Shown here: one piece after another, positions 3,930-63,800 of the stretch
Numbering within the stretch: the stretch's first letter is position 1
How the letters are laid out: every line of letters starts with the position of its first letter
Assembly: GCA_037481655.1 (NCBI GenBank)
Contig: JBBFLF010000007.1
Location: 62,001 to 126,000 of the forward strand
Reading direction: 5' to 3'
DNA from: Desulfobaccales bacterium
GTDB lineage: Bacteria; Desulfobacterota; Desulfobaccia; Desulfobaccales; 0-14-0-80-60-11
Length of the DNA: 64,000 nt
Position numbers and translations under genes: made by a program
The notes under the pieces: model-generated
Seen by the model: the letters and a program-made list of their open reading frames with translations, nothing else
What the model was told of the DNA's origin: nothing
Database searches by the model: none

Positions 3930-4328
3930 TTACCAGATCTGGCACAAGACTTCGCCGCCCACCTTGAGCTTGCGGGCCTGGCGGTCGGTGAGCACGCCCT
4001 TGTTGGTGGACACCACCGCCACCCCCAAGCCCCCCTGGACCCGGGGGAGCTCCTCCCAGCCCCGGTAGACCCGGCAACCCGGCCGGCTCACCCGCTCGAT
4101 CCCCTGGATGAGGGGCCGATTGTGCTCGTCGTACTTGAGATAGACCCGCAAAATCCCCTGGCGGTTGTCCTTGATCACCTTGTAATTCTTGATGTAGCCC
4201 TCATCCTTGAAGATGCGGGCCAAGGCGATCTTCATGCGGGAGGCGGGGATGTCCACCTTGTCAAAGCCCGCTTTGCCGGCGTTGCGGATGCGGGTCAGCA
4301 TATCGGCGAGGGGGTCGGTCATGCTCAT
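3930..4328 (-). CDS. rpsH: 30S ribosomal protein S8 (uS8)
   Basis: uS8 binds the central domain of 16S rRNA; in E. coli it also autoregulates the spc operon. The 132-residue protein starts MSMTDPLADMLTRIRNA and ends with GVLTDRQARKLKVGGEVLCQIW, the family C-terminus. The ATG at 4328 is chosen because AGGAGG lies eight bases upstream; an ATG two codons later is possible. The frame is open further upstream, but that extension overlaps rpsN and has no homology. Confidence 0.96.
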   Translation of the reverse strand: MSMTDPLADMLTRIRNAGKAGFDKVDIPASRMKIALARIFKDEGYIKNYKVIKDNRQGILRVYLKYDEHNRPLIQGIERVSRPGCRVYRGWEELPRVQGGLGVAVVSTNKGVLTDRQARKLKVGGEVLCQIW

Positions 4329-4341
4329 AAAGTCGTCCTCC

Positions 4342-4527
4342 TCACCAGCTGGACTTGATGACCCCGGGGATTTCCCCCCTGAGGGCCATGGTGCGGAAGC
4401 AGATGCGGCAGATGCCGAACTTCCGCAGGAAAGCCCGGGGCCGCCCGCACAAGGGGCAGCGATGATAGGCCCGGACCGCAAACTTGGGGGGCCGCTTGGC
4501 CTTGGCGATGAGCGATTTCTTGGCCAT
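4342..4527 (-). CDS. rpsN: 30S ribosomal protein S14 type Z (uS14, zinc form)
   Basis: uS14 assembles into the head of the small subunit. This is the short 61-residue zinc-binding form: two CxxC pairs (CPLC near residue 24, CRIC near residue 39) form the zinc ribbon. It starts [16 protein letters not shown]. Enterobacteria have a longer zinc-free S14, so the form seen here fits non-gammaproteobacterial lineages. Confidence 0.96.
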
Positions 4528-4528
4528 C

Positions 4529-5155
4529 CTATCTCCTGAACGGCATGCCCAACAGGGACAACAGCTGTTTGCCTTCCGCGTCGGTGGTCGCGGTGGTGAC
4601 GATGGTGATGTTCATGCCTTTGATCTTGTCAATCTTGTCGTAGTCGATCTCCGGGAAGATGATCTGCTCCCGGATTCCCAGGGTGTAATTCCCCCGGCCG
4701 TCGAAACCCTTGTCGCTCACGCCCCGAAAGTCCCGCACCCGGGGGAGCACCACGTTCATCAGCTTGTCCAGGAAGGCGTACATGCGATCTTTGCGCAGGG
4801 TCACCATGCAGCCGATGGGCATGCCTTCCCGAAGCTTGAAGGCGGCGATGGAGCGCCGGGCCCGGGTGACCACCGGCTTCTGGCCGGTGATGGCGGCCAG
4901 CTCCGCCTGGGCCGACTCCAGGATCTTGATGTTCTGGATGGCCTCCCCCAGCCCCATGTTGATGACGATCTTCTCCAGCTTGGGGACCTGCATGGGGCTT
5001 TTGTAGCGGAACTCCTGCATCATCCGGGGGACCACCACCTCCCGGTAATGGTCCAGGAGCCGGGGCTTGATGCGGAGCGGCCGCTGGCCGGTGGGAGCCT
5101 CCGCCGGTTTTTTGGCCGCTTGGGCCGCGGCCTTTTTGGCGCCTTTGTCAGCCAT
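4529..5155 (-). CDS. rplE: 50S ribosomal protein L5 (uL5) with N-terminal extension
   Basis: uL5 binds 5S rRNA and contacts the P-site tRNA. At 208 residues it is about 28 longer than the usual ~180. The excess is an alanine/lysine/proline-rich head (residues 1-28) before the normal [17 protein letters not shown] start. The longer start is supported by AAGGAG eight bases upstream, inside the 3' end of rplX, with which it overlaps by 8 bases. The core motifs [11 protein letters not shown] and [13 protein letters not shown] are present. Confidence 0.94.
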
Positions 5156-31641: not shown

Positions 31642-31914
31642 TTATTTCACCAAATCTTTCAGCTGCTTGCCGGGCTTGAATTTCACTACCTTGCTGGCCG
31701 GAATCTTCAAAGGCTCGCCGGTCTGGGGATTGCGTCCCTCCCGGGCCTTGCGTTCCGCCACCACAAAGGTGCCGAACCCGGCCAACGCCAGGCGCCCTTG
31801 GGTCTTCAAGGTCTCGGACATGACTTTGAGGAGGGCGTTGACCGCTTTTTCCGCATCCACCTTCTTAACCTGGGCTTCCCCCGCCACCTGCGCAATCAAC
31901 TCTGATTTCGTCAT
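31642..31914 (-). CDS. HU-family DNA-binding protein
   Basis: HU proteins are small dimeric, nonspecific DNA-binding proteins that bend DNA and compact the nucleoid. The 90-residue product starts MTKSELIAQVAGEAQVKK. It contains the core GFGTFVVAERKAREGRNPQTGEP, with the proline arm tip NPQTG, and ends FKPGKQLKDLVK. The ATG at 31914 has AAGGGGG upstream; a longer in-frame reading is unrelated. A second, diverged family member lies at 62661-62939. Confidence 0.95.
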   Translation of the reverse strand: MTKSELIAQVAGEAQVKKVDAEKAVNALLKVMSETLKTQGRLALAGFGTFVVAERKAREGRNPQTGEPLKIPASKVVKFKPGKQLKDLVK

Positions 31915-59403: not shown

Positions 59404-62094
59404 TTACGCTTTCTCGACCTGCACGGCGCAGACCTTGTATTCCGGGATGCGGCAGACCGGGTCCAGGGCGGCGTTGGTGAGCTTGTTGGCCGCCGCCTCG
59501 GCGAAGTGGAAGGGCAAAAATACCGTGCCGGCCACCGCCTTGGGGGAGATCTGGGCCCGGGCGATGATCTCGCCCCGCCGGGAGCGCACCCGCACCCGGT
59601 CGCCGTCGCTGATACCCAAACGCTGGGCGTCCGCCGCGGCCATCTCCACCCGGCACTCCGGCGCCTTTTCCGTGAGCCCCGGGGCCCGGCGGCTCATGGT
59701 GCCGGTGTGATACTGATAGAGCACCCGGCCGGTGGTGAGATAGAGGGGGTAGTCCGCGTCCGGCATCTCCGCCGGGTCTTTGTGCTCCACCGGGAAGAAC
59801 ATGCCCAGCCCCCGGGCGAAGCGGTCCTTATGCAGAAAGACGGTGCCGGGGTGCTCTTCCGTGGGGCAGGGCCACTGGATGCCCCCCGCCTCCAGCCGCT
59901 TATAGGTGATGCCGGCGTAGGACGGGGTGACTTTCCGGATCTCCTCGAAGATCTCCTCCGGGGAGGCATAATTCATGGGATATCCCAGGCGATTGCTGAG
60001 CTCGCAGATGATCTGCCAGTCGGGCTTGCACCCGGGAAGCGGCGGGATGCACTGGCGCACCCGGGCCACCCGGCGCTCGGTGTTGGCGAAGGTGCCGTCC
60101 TTTTCGGCAAAGGAGGCCGCGGGCAGGACCACGTGGGCCAATTTGCCGGTCTCGGTGAGGAAGATGTCCTGCACCACCAGCAGCTCCAGCTTCTGCATGG
60201 CCTTGATGGCGTGGTCGGCGTCGGCATCCGACAGGGCCGGGTTTTCGCCGATGATGTAGAGGGCCTTCATCTCCCCGGCATTGATGGCCGGGAGCATGTC
60301 GGTCATGGTCTTGCCCACCCAGGCGGGAAGCCCGCTCACGCCCCAGGCCGCCTCCATCTTTTTGCGGGCCGCCTCGTCGGTCACCGGCTGGTAGCCGGAA
60401 AAGACATTGGGCAGACCCCCCATGTCGCAGGCGCCCTGGACGTTGTTCTGGCCCCGTAAGGGGTTGACGCCGCCGCCCCAGACCCCCACGTTGCCGCAGA
60501 GCATGGCCAGGTTGGCCAGGGCCTTGACGTTGTCGGTGCCCACGGTGTGCTGGGTGATGCCCATGCAATAGACGATGGAGGCCACCTTGGCCTGGGCGTA
60601 CATCCGGGCCGCGGCCTCGATGTCCGCCGCCGGGATGCCGGTGATCTGGGCGGCCCGCTCCGGGGTGTAGGCCGCCACCGTCTGCTTCAGGGCCTCGAAA
60701 TTCTCGGTGCGCTCGGCCACATAGGCGGCGTCATAGAGATTGTCCCGGATGATGACGTGCATCATGCCGTTGAGGAGGGCGATGTCCGTCCCGGGGTATT
60801 GGCGCAAGTAAAGCTTGGCGAACTTCACCAGGTCCTGGCGCCTCGGGTCCACCACGATGAGATGGGCGCCCTTGAAGCGCACCGCCCGTTTGATGCGGGC
60901 GGCAATGACCGGGTGGTTTTCATTGGTGTTGGAGCCGATGACCAGAATGCACTTCGCGTCCTCCAACTCGCCGATGGAGTTGGTCATGGCGCCGGAACCG
61001 AAAGCTGCGGCCAGACCGGCCACAGTGGCGCTGTGTCAGAGACGGGCGCAGTGGTCCACGTGGTTGGTGCCGATCACCGCCCGCATGAATTTCTGCATCA
61101 GGTAGTTCTCTTCATTGGTGATGCGGGCGGAGCACCAGCCGCCGATCTGCTCGGGACCGTGTTTCTCCTTGATCTCCTTGAGCTTGGCGGCCACGAAATC
61201 CAGGGCCTCATCCCAGCTCACCGGGGTCAGCTCGCCGTTTTTGCGCAGGAGCGGCGTGGTGAGGCGCTCGGGGTGGTGCACAAAGTGCCAGCCGAAGCGG
61301 CCTTTGACGCACAGCCGGCCGTTATTGGGCTCCAGGTCGGCGCCGGTCACCTTGACGATGCGGTCGTCCTTGACATGCACCTCCAACTGGCAGCCCACGC
61401 CGCAGTATGGGCAGGTGGTGAGGACTTTGGTCCGTTCCCAGGCCCGGCCCTGGCCGAGGGCGTTTTTGTCCAGGAGCGCCCCCACCGGACAGGACTGGAC
61501 GCACTCGCCGCAGAAGACGCAGTCGGACTCGATGTAGGTCTTGTCCGCCTTGGCGACGATCTTGTTGTGGGAGCCCCGGTAGCCGATGGCGATGGCGTCG
61601 TTCACCTGGCGCTCAGTGCAGCCCCGCACACAGCGGCCGCACATGATGCACTTGGAGAAATCCCGGACGATCATGCTGTTGTTGTCTTCGAAGTAGTAGG
61701 GATGGTCCGGGGGGGTGGCGAAGGCGGGGTATGGCACCTGGTAGCGGTAGGCCAGGGCCTGGAGCTCGCATTCGCCGTTGGCCTCGCAGATGAGGCAGTT
61801 GTGGTTGCCGCTGGCCAGGGCCAGCTCCAGCACCATGCGCCGGGCGGCGGCCACCCGGGGGCTCTCCGTCTGGATCACCTGATTGGCCGCGGCCTGGGTG
61901 GCGCAGGCGGGGAGCAGGGTGCGGGCCCCTTCCACCTCCACCACACAGACGCGACAGGAACCGGTGGGCAGAGTGTCTTTCATCCAACAGAGGGTGGGGA
62001 TATAGACCCCGGCCCCTCGGGCCACCTCAAGAATGGTCTGACCGGGCTCAAAGGCCACGGTCCGGCCATTGAGGGTCAAAGTGGGTTCGGCCAT
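59404..62094 (-). CDS. fdhA: Formate dehydrogenase catalytic subunit, selenocysteine at in-frame UGA
   Basis: The molybdenum/tungsten-bis-pterin enzyme that oxidises formate or reduces CO2. With UGA at 61036-61038 read as Sec353 the product has 896 residues. From the N-terminus: a [2Fe-2S] site (C36, C47, C50, C64), a His-Cys3 cluster (H98, C100, C103, C109), two [4Fe-4S] clusters (C149-C159 and C192-C202), a further one (C228, C231, C235, C262), and the catalytic site HCARL-Sec-HSATVAGL. The rest of the molybdopterin domain continues to ...VCRIPEYKVCAVQVEKA. A plain reading splits the gene in two at the UGA; a SECIS-like hairpin directly after it shows it is one gene. It is followed by the NuoE-NuoF gene. 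Confidence 0.95.
61007..61038 (-). promoter_or_regulatory. UGA selenocysteine codon with bacterial SECIS hairpin in fdhA
   Basis: The UGA codon (61038-61036) is followed after 18 bases by GGTCT (61017-61013), which forms the loop of a six-base-pair stem GTGGCC/GGCCGC (61023-61018 with 61012-61007). The 18-base distance and the GGUCU loop are as I remember them for E. coli fdhF, where SelB binds. This supports Sec insertion here. Confidence 0.88.
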
Positions 62095-62186: not shown

Positions 62187-62387
62187 AGGAAAAAAAGATG
62201 TCTCCGGCGAGAATCGTCGGAAAATGGGACAGGTCAAAGGCAGCCCCGGGAGTGTGCCTGTATCAGCGGCGGGTAAGGGATCTCGGCAAGGGGCGGAGGA
62301 AGAGGAATATTATGAAGGAGGGAACCCGGAGTAAGGGGAGGCCAGGCGTCTTCCCCGCCTCCCCTCCCCCCGCGGCAAAACCGACCT

Positions 62388-62653
62388 GGCCGTGCACCCT
62401 CCATCGCCCCCGCCACCGCCGAGGGCTCAGGCCCGGGGGTGTGGGATTAGCTGCCGCCACGACACAGCCGGCCCGGCTTACCGCTGCTTCCTTCCGGACC
62501 TGACGGGGTTCACCGGCGTCTGTTGCGTGGGGTCCAATCCGCCCGCCGGGCCGCGGCCAAAGGCGGCGCTGCGAGGCTCTGGGAGGGGATTCAACCCCGC
62601 ATCAAGCGGCTTTCGGGTTACAGGGCACCGCTAGCTCCCCGTCTAGCACGGCC
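62388..62653 (-). ncRNA. ffs: Long bacterial SRP RNA with Alu domain
   Basis: This RNA is the core of the signal recognition particle, with Ffh, for co-translational membrane targeting. The S-domain tip has the invariant GTCAGGTCCGGAAGGAAGCAG (about 62473-62495). The 5' part (62653-62580) carries the Alu-domain sequence GGGGAGCTAGCGGTGCCCTGTA as in the Bacillus subtilis scRNA. The ends pair as GGCCGTGC/GCACGGCC. The length is about 266 bases, like the 271-base Bacillus RNA and unlike the 114-base E. coli 4.5S RNA. The exact ends are estimated from the closing stem. Confidence 0.92.
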
Positions 62654-62660
62654 AGGAATC

Positions 62661-62939
62661 TTATGACCGATCCACCAGTTCGCTCAGTTCCTTGCCCACC
62701 TTGAAAAAGGGGAGCTTTTTGCCCCCCACCTCGATGACGTCGCCGGTTTTGGGGTTCCGGCCCTTGTAGCCATTATAATACTTCACCTTGAAGCTGCCGA
62801 AGCCCCGGATCTCGATGCGTTCGTTGCGCACCAGGGCTTCCGCCATATTCTCAAAGATGGCGTTGACCACCAGCTCCGCTTTTTTCAGGGTGAGGTTCTC
62901 AGCCTTGGCCAGGGCCTCGATGAGTTGCGACTTGTTCAT
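62661..62939 (-). CDS. HU/IHF-family DNA-binding protein (beside SRP RNA)
   Basis: A 92-residue histone-like protein starting MNKSQLIEALAKAENLTLKKAELVV. It has the core RIEIRGFGSFKVKYYNGYKGRNPKTGDVIEVGG and ends GKELSELVDRS. The arm tip NPKTG and the strand around VEVGGKKLPFFK look more IHF-beta-like than the other HU-type gene at 31642. The stop codon is seven bases before the 5' end of the SRP RNA on the same strand. A promoter lies at 63013-63041. Confidence 0.93.
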   Translation of the reverse strand: MNKSQLIEALAKAENLTLKKAELVVNAIFENMAEALVRNERIEIRGFGSFKVKYYNGYKGRNPKTGDVIEVGGKKLPFFKVGKELSELVDRS

Positions 62940-63012: not shown

Positions 63013-63041
63013 ATAATAAAAAAAATAAGTTGGGCCGTAAA
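63013..63041 (-). promoter_or_regulatory. Probable promoter of HU/IHF gene and SRP RNA
   Basis: TTTACG (63036-63041), 17-base spacer, TATTAT (63013-63018) in a strongly AT-rich stretch. The leader to the HU/IHF ATG is about 70 bases. The SRP RNA may be transcribed from here, or from a weak -10-like TAAGAT (62658-62663) overlapping the HU stop. Confidence 0.55.
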
Positions 63042-63131: not shown

Positions 63132-63800
63132 ATGCGCGAACCCCATCCGTCGCCGATTCCCCTGGCATTGCCGGCGGAGCCCCCGGCCGCAGGAGAGGTC
63201 GGCTATTTTCCCCTGCTTCAGGGCGCCAATCCGGCATTTCTGCCGGCCCGGGCCGTGTTCCTCTTCCATCCCGGCATGCTCTTCGGCTCCCGGGAGCGCT
63301 GGTGGGGCAACCCCGCTCCCCGGCCCACCCCCCACGAGGGCCTGGACCTGTGGCTGTGGGAGGATGACGCGGCTCAGGCTTACACCCTCCCGGTGACCTT
63401 CCGGGTGCCTGCCCCCTTTCCCGGCGTGGTGGCCCGGCTGCTGCCGGATTTTCTGGGCCTGACCGTGTGCCTGCGCCATGCGGTGGCGCAGGGCGAGACC
63501 TGCCTGTACAGCCTCCTGGGCCACCTCCGGCCCCGGGACGACCTGCGGGAGGGCAGTCGGGTGGCCGCCGGGGATATCCTGGGTACTCTGGCCGCCCCCC
63601 AGAAGCCCACCCGGGTGCCGCCCCACCTGCACCTCACCCTGGTCTTTCTGCCCCCAGCCCAGGAAGGCGAGCTTTTAGATTGGGGCGTGTTGGGCCGCCA
63701 CCCGGCGGTGCGGCTGGTGGACCCCCTGCCTTGGCTCCGCCTGCCCCATCGCCTCATCAGGGAGCTGCCCCTGCCCCCGGAAAGCCGAGGTATGCCATGA
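63132..63800 (+). CDS. M23-like peptidase domain protein
   Basis: A 222-residue protein with the zinc-peptidase motifs of LytM/M23 enzymes: HEGLDLW (HxxxD, about residues 68-74), a LLGHL with the third histidine near residue 130, and HLHLTLV (HxH, about 166). M23 enzymes cut peptidoglycan cross-links, but no signal peptide is seen and sequence similarity is only motif-based. The ATG overlaps nothing upstream; its stop overlaps the MFS start by four bases (ATGA), so the two are translationally coupled. Confidence 0.72.
   Translation: MREPHPSPIPLALPAEPPAAGEVGYFPLLQGANPAFLPARAVFLFHPGMLFGSRERWWGNPAPRPTPHEGLDLWLWEDDAAQAYTLPVTFRVPAPFPGVVARLLPDFLGLTVCLRHAVAQGETCLYSLLGHLRPRDDLREGSRVAAGDILGTLAAPQKPTRVPPHLHLTLVFLPPAQEGELLDWGVLGRHPAVRLVDPLPWLRLPHRLIRELPLPPESRGMP

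Follow-up and report, generated by a model that had tools for sequence, protein, structure and literature searches.

Introduction

The SRP RNA is an essential housekeeping RNA that helps to deliver proteins to the membrane. IHF-beta is a DNA-bending protein, and in gammaproteobacteria its gene, ihfB (himD), follows rpsA. Binding to structured RNA has precedent among proteins of the HU family. The HBsu-scRNA particle of Bacillus subtilis brings a protein of the HU/IHF family together with a long SRP RNA; to our knowledge, the HBsu gene is not genomically linked to its SRP RNA. HBsu is an HU protein, and its binding to the Alu domain of this RNA has been reported (Nakamura 1999, as cited in PMC8230904), a statement repeated in passages of the reviews PMC8230904 and PMC4359368. 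According to a passage of PMC8137916, the B. subtilis Alu domain docks in the factor site of the ribosome, and elongation is thereby blocked; the work on Alu arrest cited there (Beckert 2015) carries a title that calls it RNA-mediated.

Here we analysed a locus in a 64,000-nt stretch of DNA (the window) from a genome of the class Desulfobaccia, phylum Desulfobacterota. On its minus strand, an ihfB-like gene is directly followed by a large SRP RNA. We found no description of such an ihfB-SRP RNA pair in the open-access literature, an absence that is weak evidence of novelty.

Results and Discussion

Boundaries of the SRP RNA

An earlier interpretation of this DNA (the sequence-only reading) had noted an HU/IHF-family gene and an SRP RNA adjacent on the same strand, and matches to PF00216 and RF01854 confirmed both (Table 1). 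The Rfam covariance model Bacteria_large_SRP (RF01854, gathering score 60 bits) aligned over its full length (1-256) to positions 62390-62651 of the minus strand with 127.8 bits and an E-value of 1.2e-19, and this alignment together with the fold places the Alu and S domains within one RNA. The RNA resembles other members of RF01854, including the B. subtilis scRNA type, in its full-length match with both domains and in being single-copy (source genome 2.87 Mb, 100% complete). It differs from them in following ihfB immediately, in apparently lacking a promoter of its own and, in the window's branch, in a closing helix 5 bp longer than that of the Rfam model (CCTGG/CCGTGC ... GCACGG/CCAGG in the window).

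In relatives the closing helix always extends outward, as CCTTGG/YCGTGC ... GCACGR/CCAAGG and variants. Across 41 RNAs of relatives, 97% of the outer six pairs were formed, two positions showing TA/CG exchanges, whereas slid controls reached at most 64% and permuted controls a maximum of 93%. These covarying outer pairs indicate that the RNA helix in the window starts only 4 nt after the TAA of ihfB. The 272-nt RNA so delimited folds with an 11-bp closing helix (z -2.79). The spacing of seven bases first proposed (RNA edge at 62653) was close, lying between the 9 nt left by the Rfam-modelled edge and the 4 nt left by the full helix.

Table 1. Features of the ihfB-SRP RNA locus, with coordinates as positions in the whole 64,000-nt window
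Feature	Position	Strand	Basis
ihfB-like gene, 92 aa, HU/IHF family (IHF-beta type)	62661-62939	-	ORF, PF00216, NCBIfam, PDB
Large SRP RNA including full closing helix	62385-62656	-	RF01854, co-varying extension, fold
Apical S-domain core of SRP RNA, GUGAACCCCGUCAGGUCCGGAAGGAAGCAGCGGUAAGC	62476-62513	-	Rfam alignment
Outer closing helix, 5' strand, CCTGG, 4 nt past ihfB stop codon	62652-62656	-	Sequence, covariation
Outer closing helix, 3' strand, CCAGG	62385-62389	-	Sequence, covariation
Promoter-like site upstream of ihfB, TTTACG-17-TATTAT, presumed driver of ihfB-SRP unit	63013-63041	-	Consensus scan; equivalent in most relatives
Promoter-like site within ihfB, TCGGCA-17-TATAAT, probably a chance codon match	62772-62800	-	Consensus scan

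Two other features of the window were noted. A divergent gene on the plus strand (63132-63800) weakly matches peptidase family M23, its 26.1 bits falling just short of the cut-off. On the minus strand, a formate dehydrogenase-alpha-like protein (59404-62094) appears as two same-frame ORFs, 61036-62094 and 59404-61023; the TGA between them (61036-61038), in the context ARL-TGA-HSATVAGL, resembles a selenocysteine codon.

The linked protein is IHF-beta-like

The ihfB-like ORF matched PF00216 with an E-value of 2.3e-29, in keeping with its earlier assignment to the HU/IHF family, but the label HU did not hold. Its best NCBIfam model was IHF-beta (PRK00199, 104 bits, against 65.5 for IHF-alpha and 57 for HU-beta), and its closest natural PDB chain was IHF-beta (1ihf_B). 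Because the curated equivalog cut-offs were narrowly missed (104 versus 115 bits for PRK00199 and 97.9 versus 119.95 for TIGR00988, still the best models), we describe the protein as IHF-beta-like. Motifs for DNA contact, among them RIEIRGFGSF and GRNPKTGD, are preserved, in line with an ordinary IHF-beta. What sets it apart from described ihfB genes, besides the score, is that it precedes an SRP RNA.

The source genome has two further HU/IHF genes. One, the partner gene for IHF-beta, is IHF-alpha-like (C3:30926-31195; best model PRK00285, 96.5 bits, below the cut-off). The other, at 31648-31914 on the minus strand of the window and away from the SRP RNA, is of the HU type and close to Gram-positive HU structures; judged by these similarities, it corresponds better to HBsu than the linked protein does. 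With the linked gene nearest to IHF-beta and an HU-like gene elsewhere, the protein beside the RNA is not the HBsu counterpart.

Conservation of the pair and replacement of its neighbours

A large SRP RNA was found in 26 of the 29 genomes of the class Desulfobaccia, and all 26 have an ihfB-like gene, 80-100% identical, closely spaced and directly upstream on the same strand. In one class genome (G011, 94% complete) the two genes are missing together, as would result from a single assembly gap. Among 80 homologues, 29 were linked to a large and 7 to a small SRP RNA, and about 30 large-SRP genomes of the phylum outside the class also have the pair.

We then sampled 297 Desulfobacterota genomes, counting as true large RNAs those above 115 bits. 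This gave 47 large-SRP genomes: 12 in the class, all linked, and 35 outside it, of which 15 were linked (families f7, f13, f31, f47 and f65) and 20 had no HU/IHF gene beside the RNA. None of 60 other SRP regions across families was linked, some of these having short upstream flanks. Most of the genomes are metagenome assemblies and the counts mix independent and related lineages; loci recorded twice (e.g., L015 = L205 and L046 = L211) were reduced so that each distinct genome counted once. The neighbourhood comparison thus bears out the adjacency throughout the SRP-bearing genomes of the class, while in part of the phylum relatives with the long RNA do without it. IHF-beta itself is present in relatives whether linked or unlinked. 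In one unlinked locus (L111), the large SRP RNA seems, by eye, to lie close behind a tRNA gene (T-arm-like sequence, CCA end), another possible shared transcript.

The pair might be adjacent merely by descent, with no functional reason. The IHF-beta tree, although poorly resolved with 92 aa, fits one or few origins of the linkage followed by clustered inheritance (the same tree requires the RNA to have switched several times between its large and small forms), and part of the phylum shares a longer gene order with rpsA, cmk, hisC and yfiH. However, three different neighbour contexts were found. In f7, f31 and f47, rpsA-cmk-hisC is divergent from ihfB-SRP-yfiH(-pyrG), an arrangement unlike that of gammaproteobacteria, where ihfB follows rpsA. 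In f13, a mannose-1-phosphate guanylyltransferase-like gene (named by eye) is divergent from ihfB-SRP-zinc ribbon-HD domain. In Desulfobaccia, f2 keeps pyrG downstream, whereas eight relatives in the window's family (f1) have no shared flanking gene within 3 kb and yet retain the pair intact. Only the ihfB-SRP pair is constant while the flanks differ, which argues against passive synteny, and we consider that explanation unlikely.

Linkage with and without the Alu domain

The sequence-only reading went further and took the protein to be a dedicated Alu-binding subunit of the SRP, like HBsu, with the linkage reflecting that role. Beyond the HBsu precedent, it could draw on the distribution of the linkage, which occurs in 27 of the 47 large-SRP genomes and in none of the 60 other SRP regions, though this pattern follows clades. 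However, in 12 distinct genomes from at least three lineages, including the Desulfarculus type, ihfB is followed by a small SRP RNA (RF00169) without the Alu domain. The large and small forms occur within each of the families f13, f31 and f47 in the same gene context (loci L126, L141, L142 and L144 versus L206, L207 and L208; L120 and L143 versus L209 and L210), implying, from the sequences compared, repeated loss of the Alu domain.

The clearest case is a pair of sister species, L045 with the large RNA (4001-4640) and L046 with the small one (4001-4450). Their S domains are nearly identical and both Alu strands are absent in L046, a clean loss of the Alu domain, and their IHF-beta proteins differ at 4 of 92 residues (96% identity). 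At the sequence level, IHF-beta is therefore not visibly changed upon Alu loss. A search for IHF-beta residues that track the presence of the Alu domain gave no convincing position; once differences between lineages are set aside, no residue clearly tells linked proteins from unlinked ones, or those beside a large RNA from those beside a small one.

Retention of the pair with a small RNA, together with the L045/L046 loss, means that the linkage does not need the Alu domain. Further against the proposed subunit stand the IHF-beta type of the linked protein, its occurrence in relatives regardless of linkage, the unlinked large-SRP genomes outside the class, which in part of the phylum count against the sequence-only reading by its own standard, and the RNA-mediated arrest named in the title of the B. 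subtilis work. Here too the contrast with the HBsu-scRNA particle is clear: HBsu is an HU, whereas the linked protein is an IHF-beta whose linkage is independent of the Alu domain. These comparisons thus lend no support to the view that the linkage exists because the protein is a dedicated Alu-binding subunit, and we regard this explanation as very improbable. The Alu-loss data remove the linkage as evidence for Alu binding; binding of IHF-beta to the Alu domain is not itself thereby disproved.

Transcription signals and a probable dicistronic ihfB-SRP RNA unit

Promoter-like sites were scored against the consensus, with the RNA start assumed at the helix. Most relatives have such a site upstream of ihfB, with a mean z of 2.23 and 29 of 52 scoring above z 2. 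Directly before the RNA, the 32 tight pairs, with gaps of about 4-30 nt, were at shuffle level (mean z 0.01; three above z 2), in contrast to a mean z of 1.21 for the 29 large RNAs in loose pairs or without linkage (p 0.006, Mann-Whitney). The promoter-like site within ihfB was rejected as a candidate, since neither the congeners L005 and L006 nor most relatives have its TATAAT. Synonymous variation was not reduced at the 3' end of the gene, and this lack of constraint gives no sign of a hidden promoter there. In tight pairs, a promoter signal precedes ihfB but not the RNA, so the latter is probably processed out of the 3' end of the ihfB mRNA.

We therefore favour, as the probable though by no means certain explanation, a dicistronic ihfB-SRP RNA unit, in which the RNA derives from the 3' end of a joint transcript and the pair is retained mainly through promoter dependence. 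The unit would have arisen once or a few times in one branch of Desulfobacterota and persisted through the replacement of the genes on either side. Transcription of tight pairs, the one in the window included, would most likely begin upstream of ihfB and read through it, and the mature SRP RNA would be freed from the 3' end of the transcript by trimming at the long closing helix. Rather than Alu binding by IHF-beta, the simplest reason to keep the linkage would be that the essential SRP RNA relies on the ihfB promoter; that both products are abundant and tied to growth may be a further one. The proposed origin at an mRNA 3' end is the same as that of 3'-UTR-derived small RNAs, which arise from mRNA processing; here the product of the presumed processing would be an essential housekeeping RNA.

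The family f13 departs from this pattern. Its gaps are 98-241 nt, and L015, L018 and L142 have intervening hairpin-plus-T-run terminators, called as consensus matches, so that ihfB and the SRP RNA are probably separate transcripts there though adjacent. The co-transcription proposed in the sequence-only reading is accordingly likely for the tight pairs and doubtful for f13. Adjacency kept in spite of terminators also means that promoter dependence cannot explain every case, and this is the chief gap in that explanation.

That the linkage outlasts Alu loss, replacement of neighbours and intervening terminators suggests that the pair may be held together by more than a common promoter. Alone or as part of IHF, IHF-beta might bind a region of the SRP RNA other than the Alu domain, or the RNA might act in cis on the ihfB mRNA (stability, autoregulation); either would keep the pair whatever the Alu state, and the RNA-binding precedent in the HU family lends this some plausibility. 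The lack of any residue that splits the proteins by linkage or RNA form, and DNA-contact motifs as expected of an ordinary IHF-beta, weigh against such a link, which we hold to be rather unlikely. The same low likelihood applies to the bolder combination in which IHF-beta is a partner of the SRP RNA, binding outside Alu or regulated in cis, while the RNA is the processed 3' end of its mRNA, an arrangement that would link the architecture of the chromosome with the targeting of membrane proteins.

Implications

Several independent losses of the Alu domain among close relatives with the same neighbours offer natural experiments on the unclear role of this domain in bacteria, and L045 and L046 are such an experiment on Alu function between sister species. 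If the dicistronic unit is indeed expressed as a joint transcript, it would be an unusual route of SRP RNA production, in which the level of SRP RNA is tied to that of IHF. Across a broad bacterial branch, an essential RNA for delivery to the membrane would then be made from the tail of the mRNA of a nucleoid protein.
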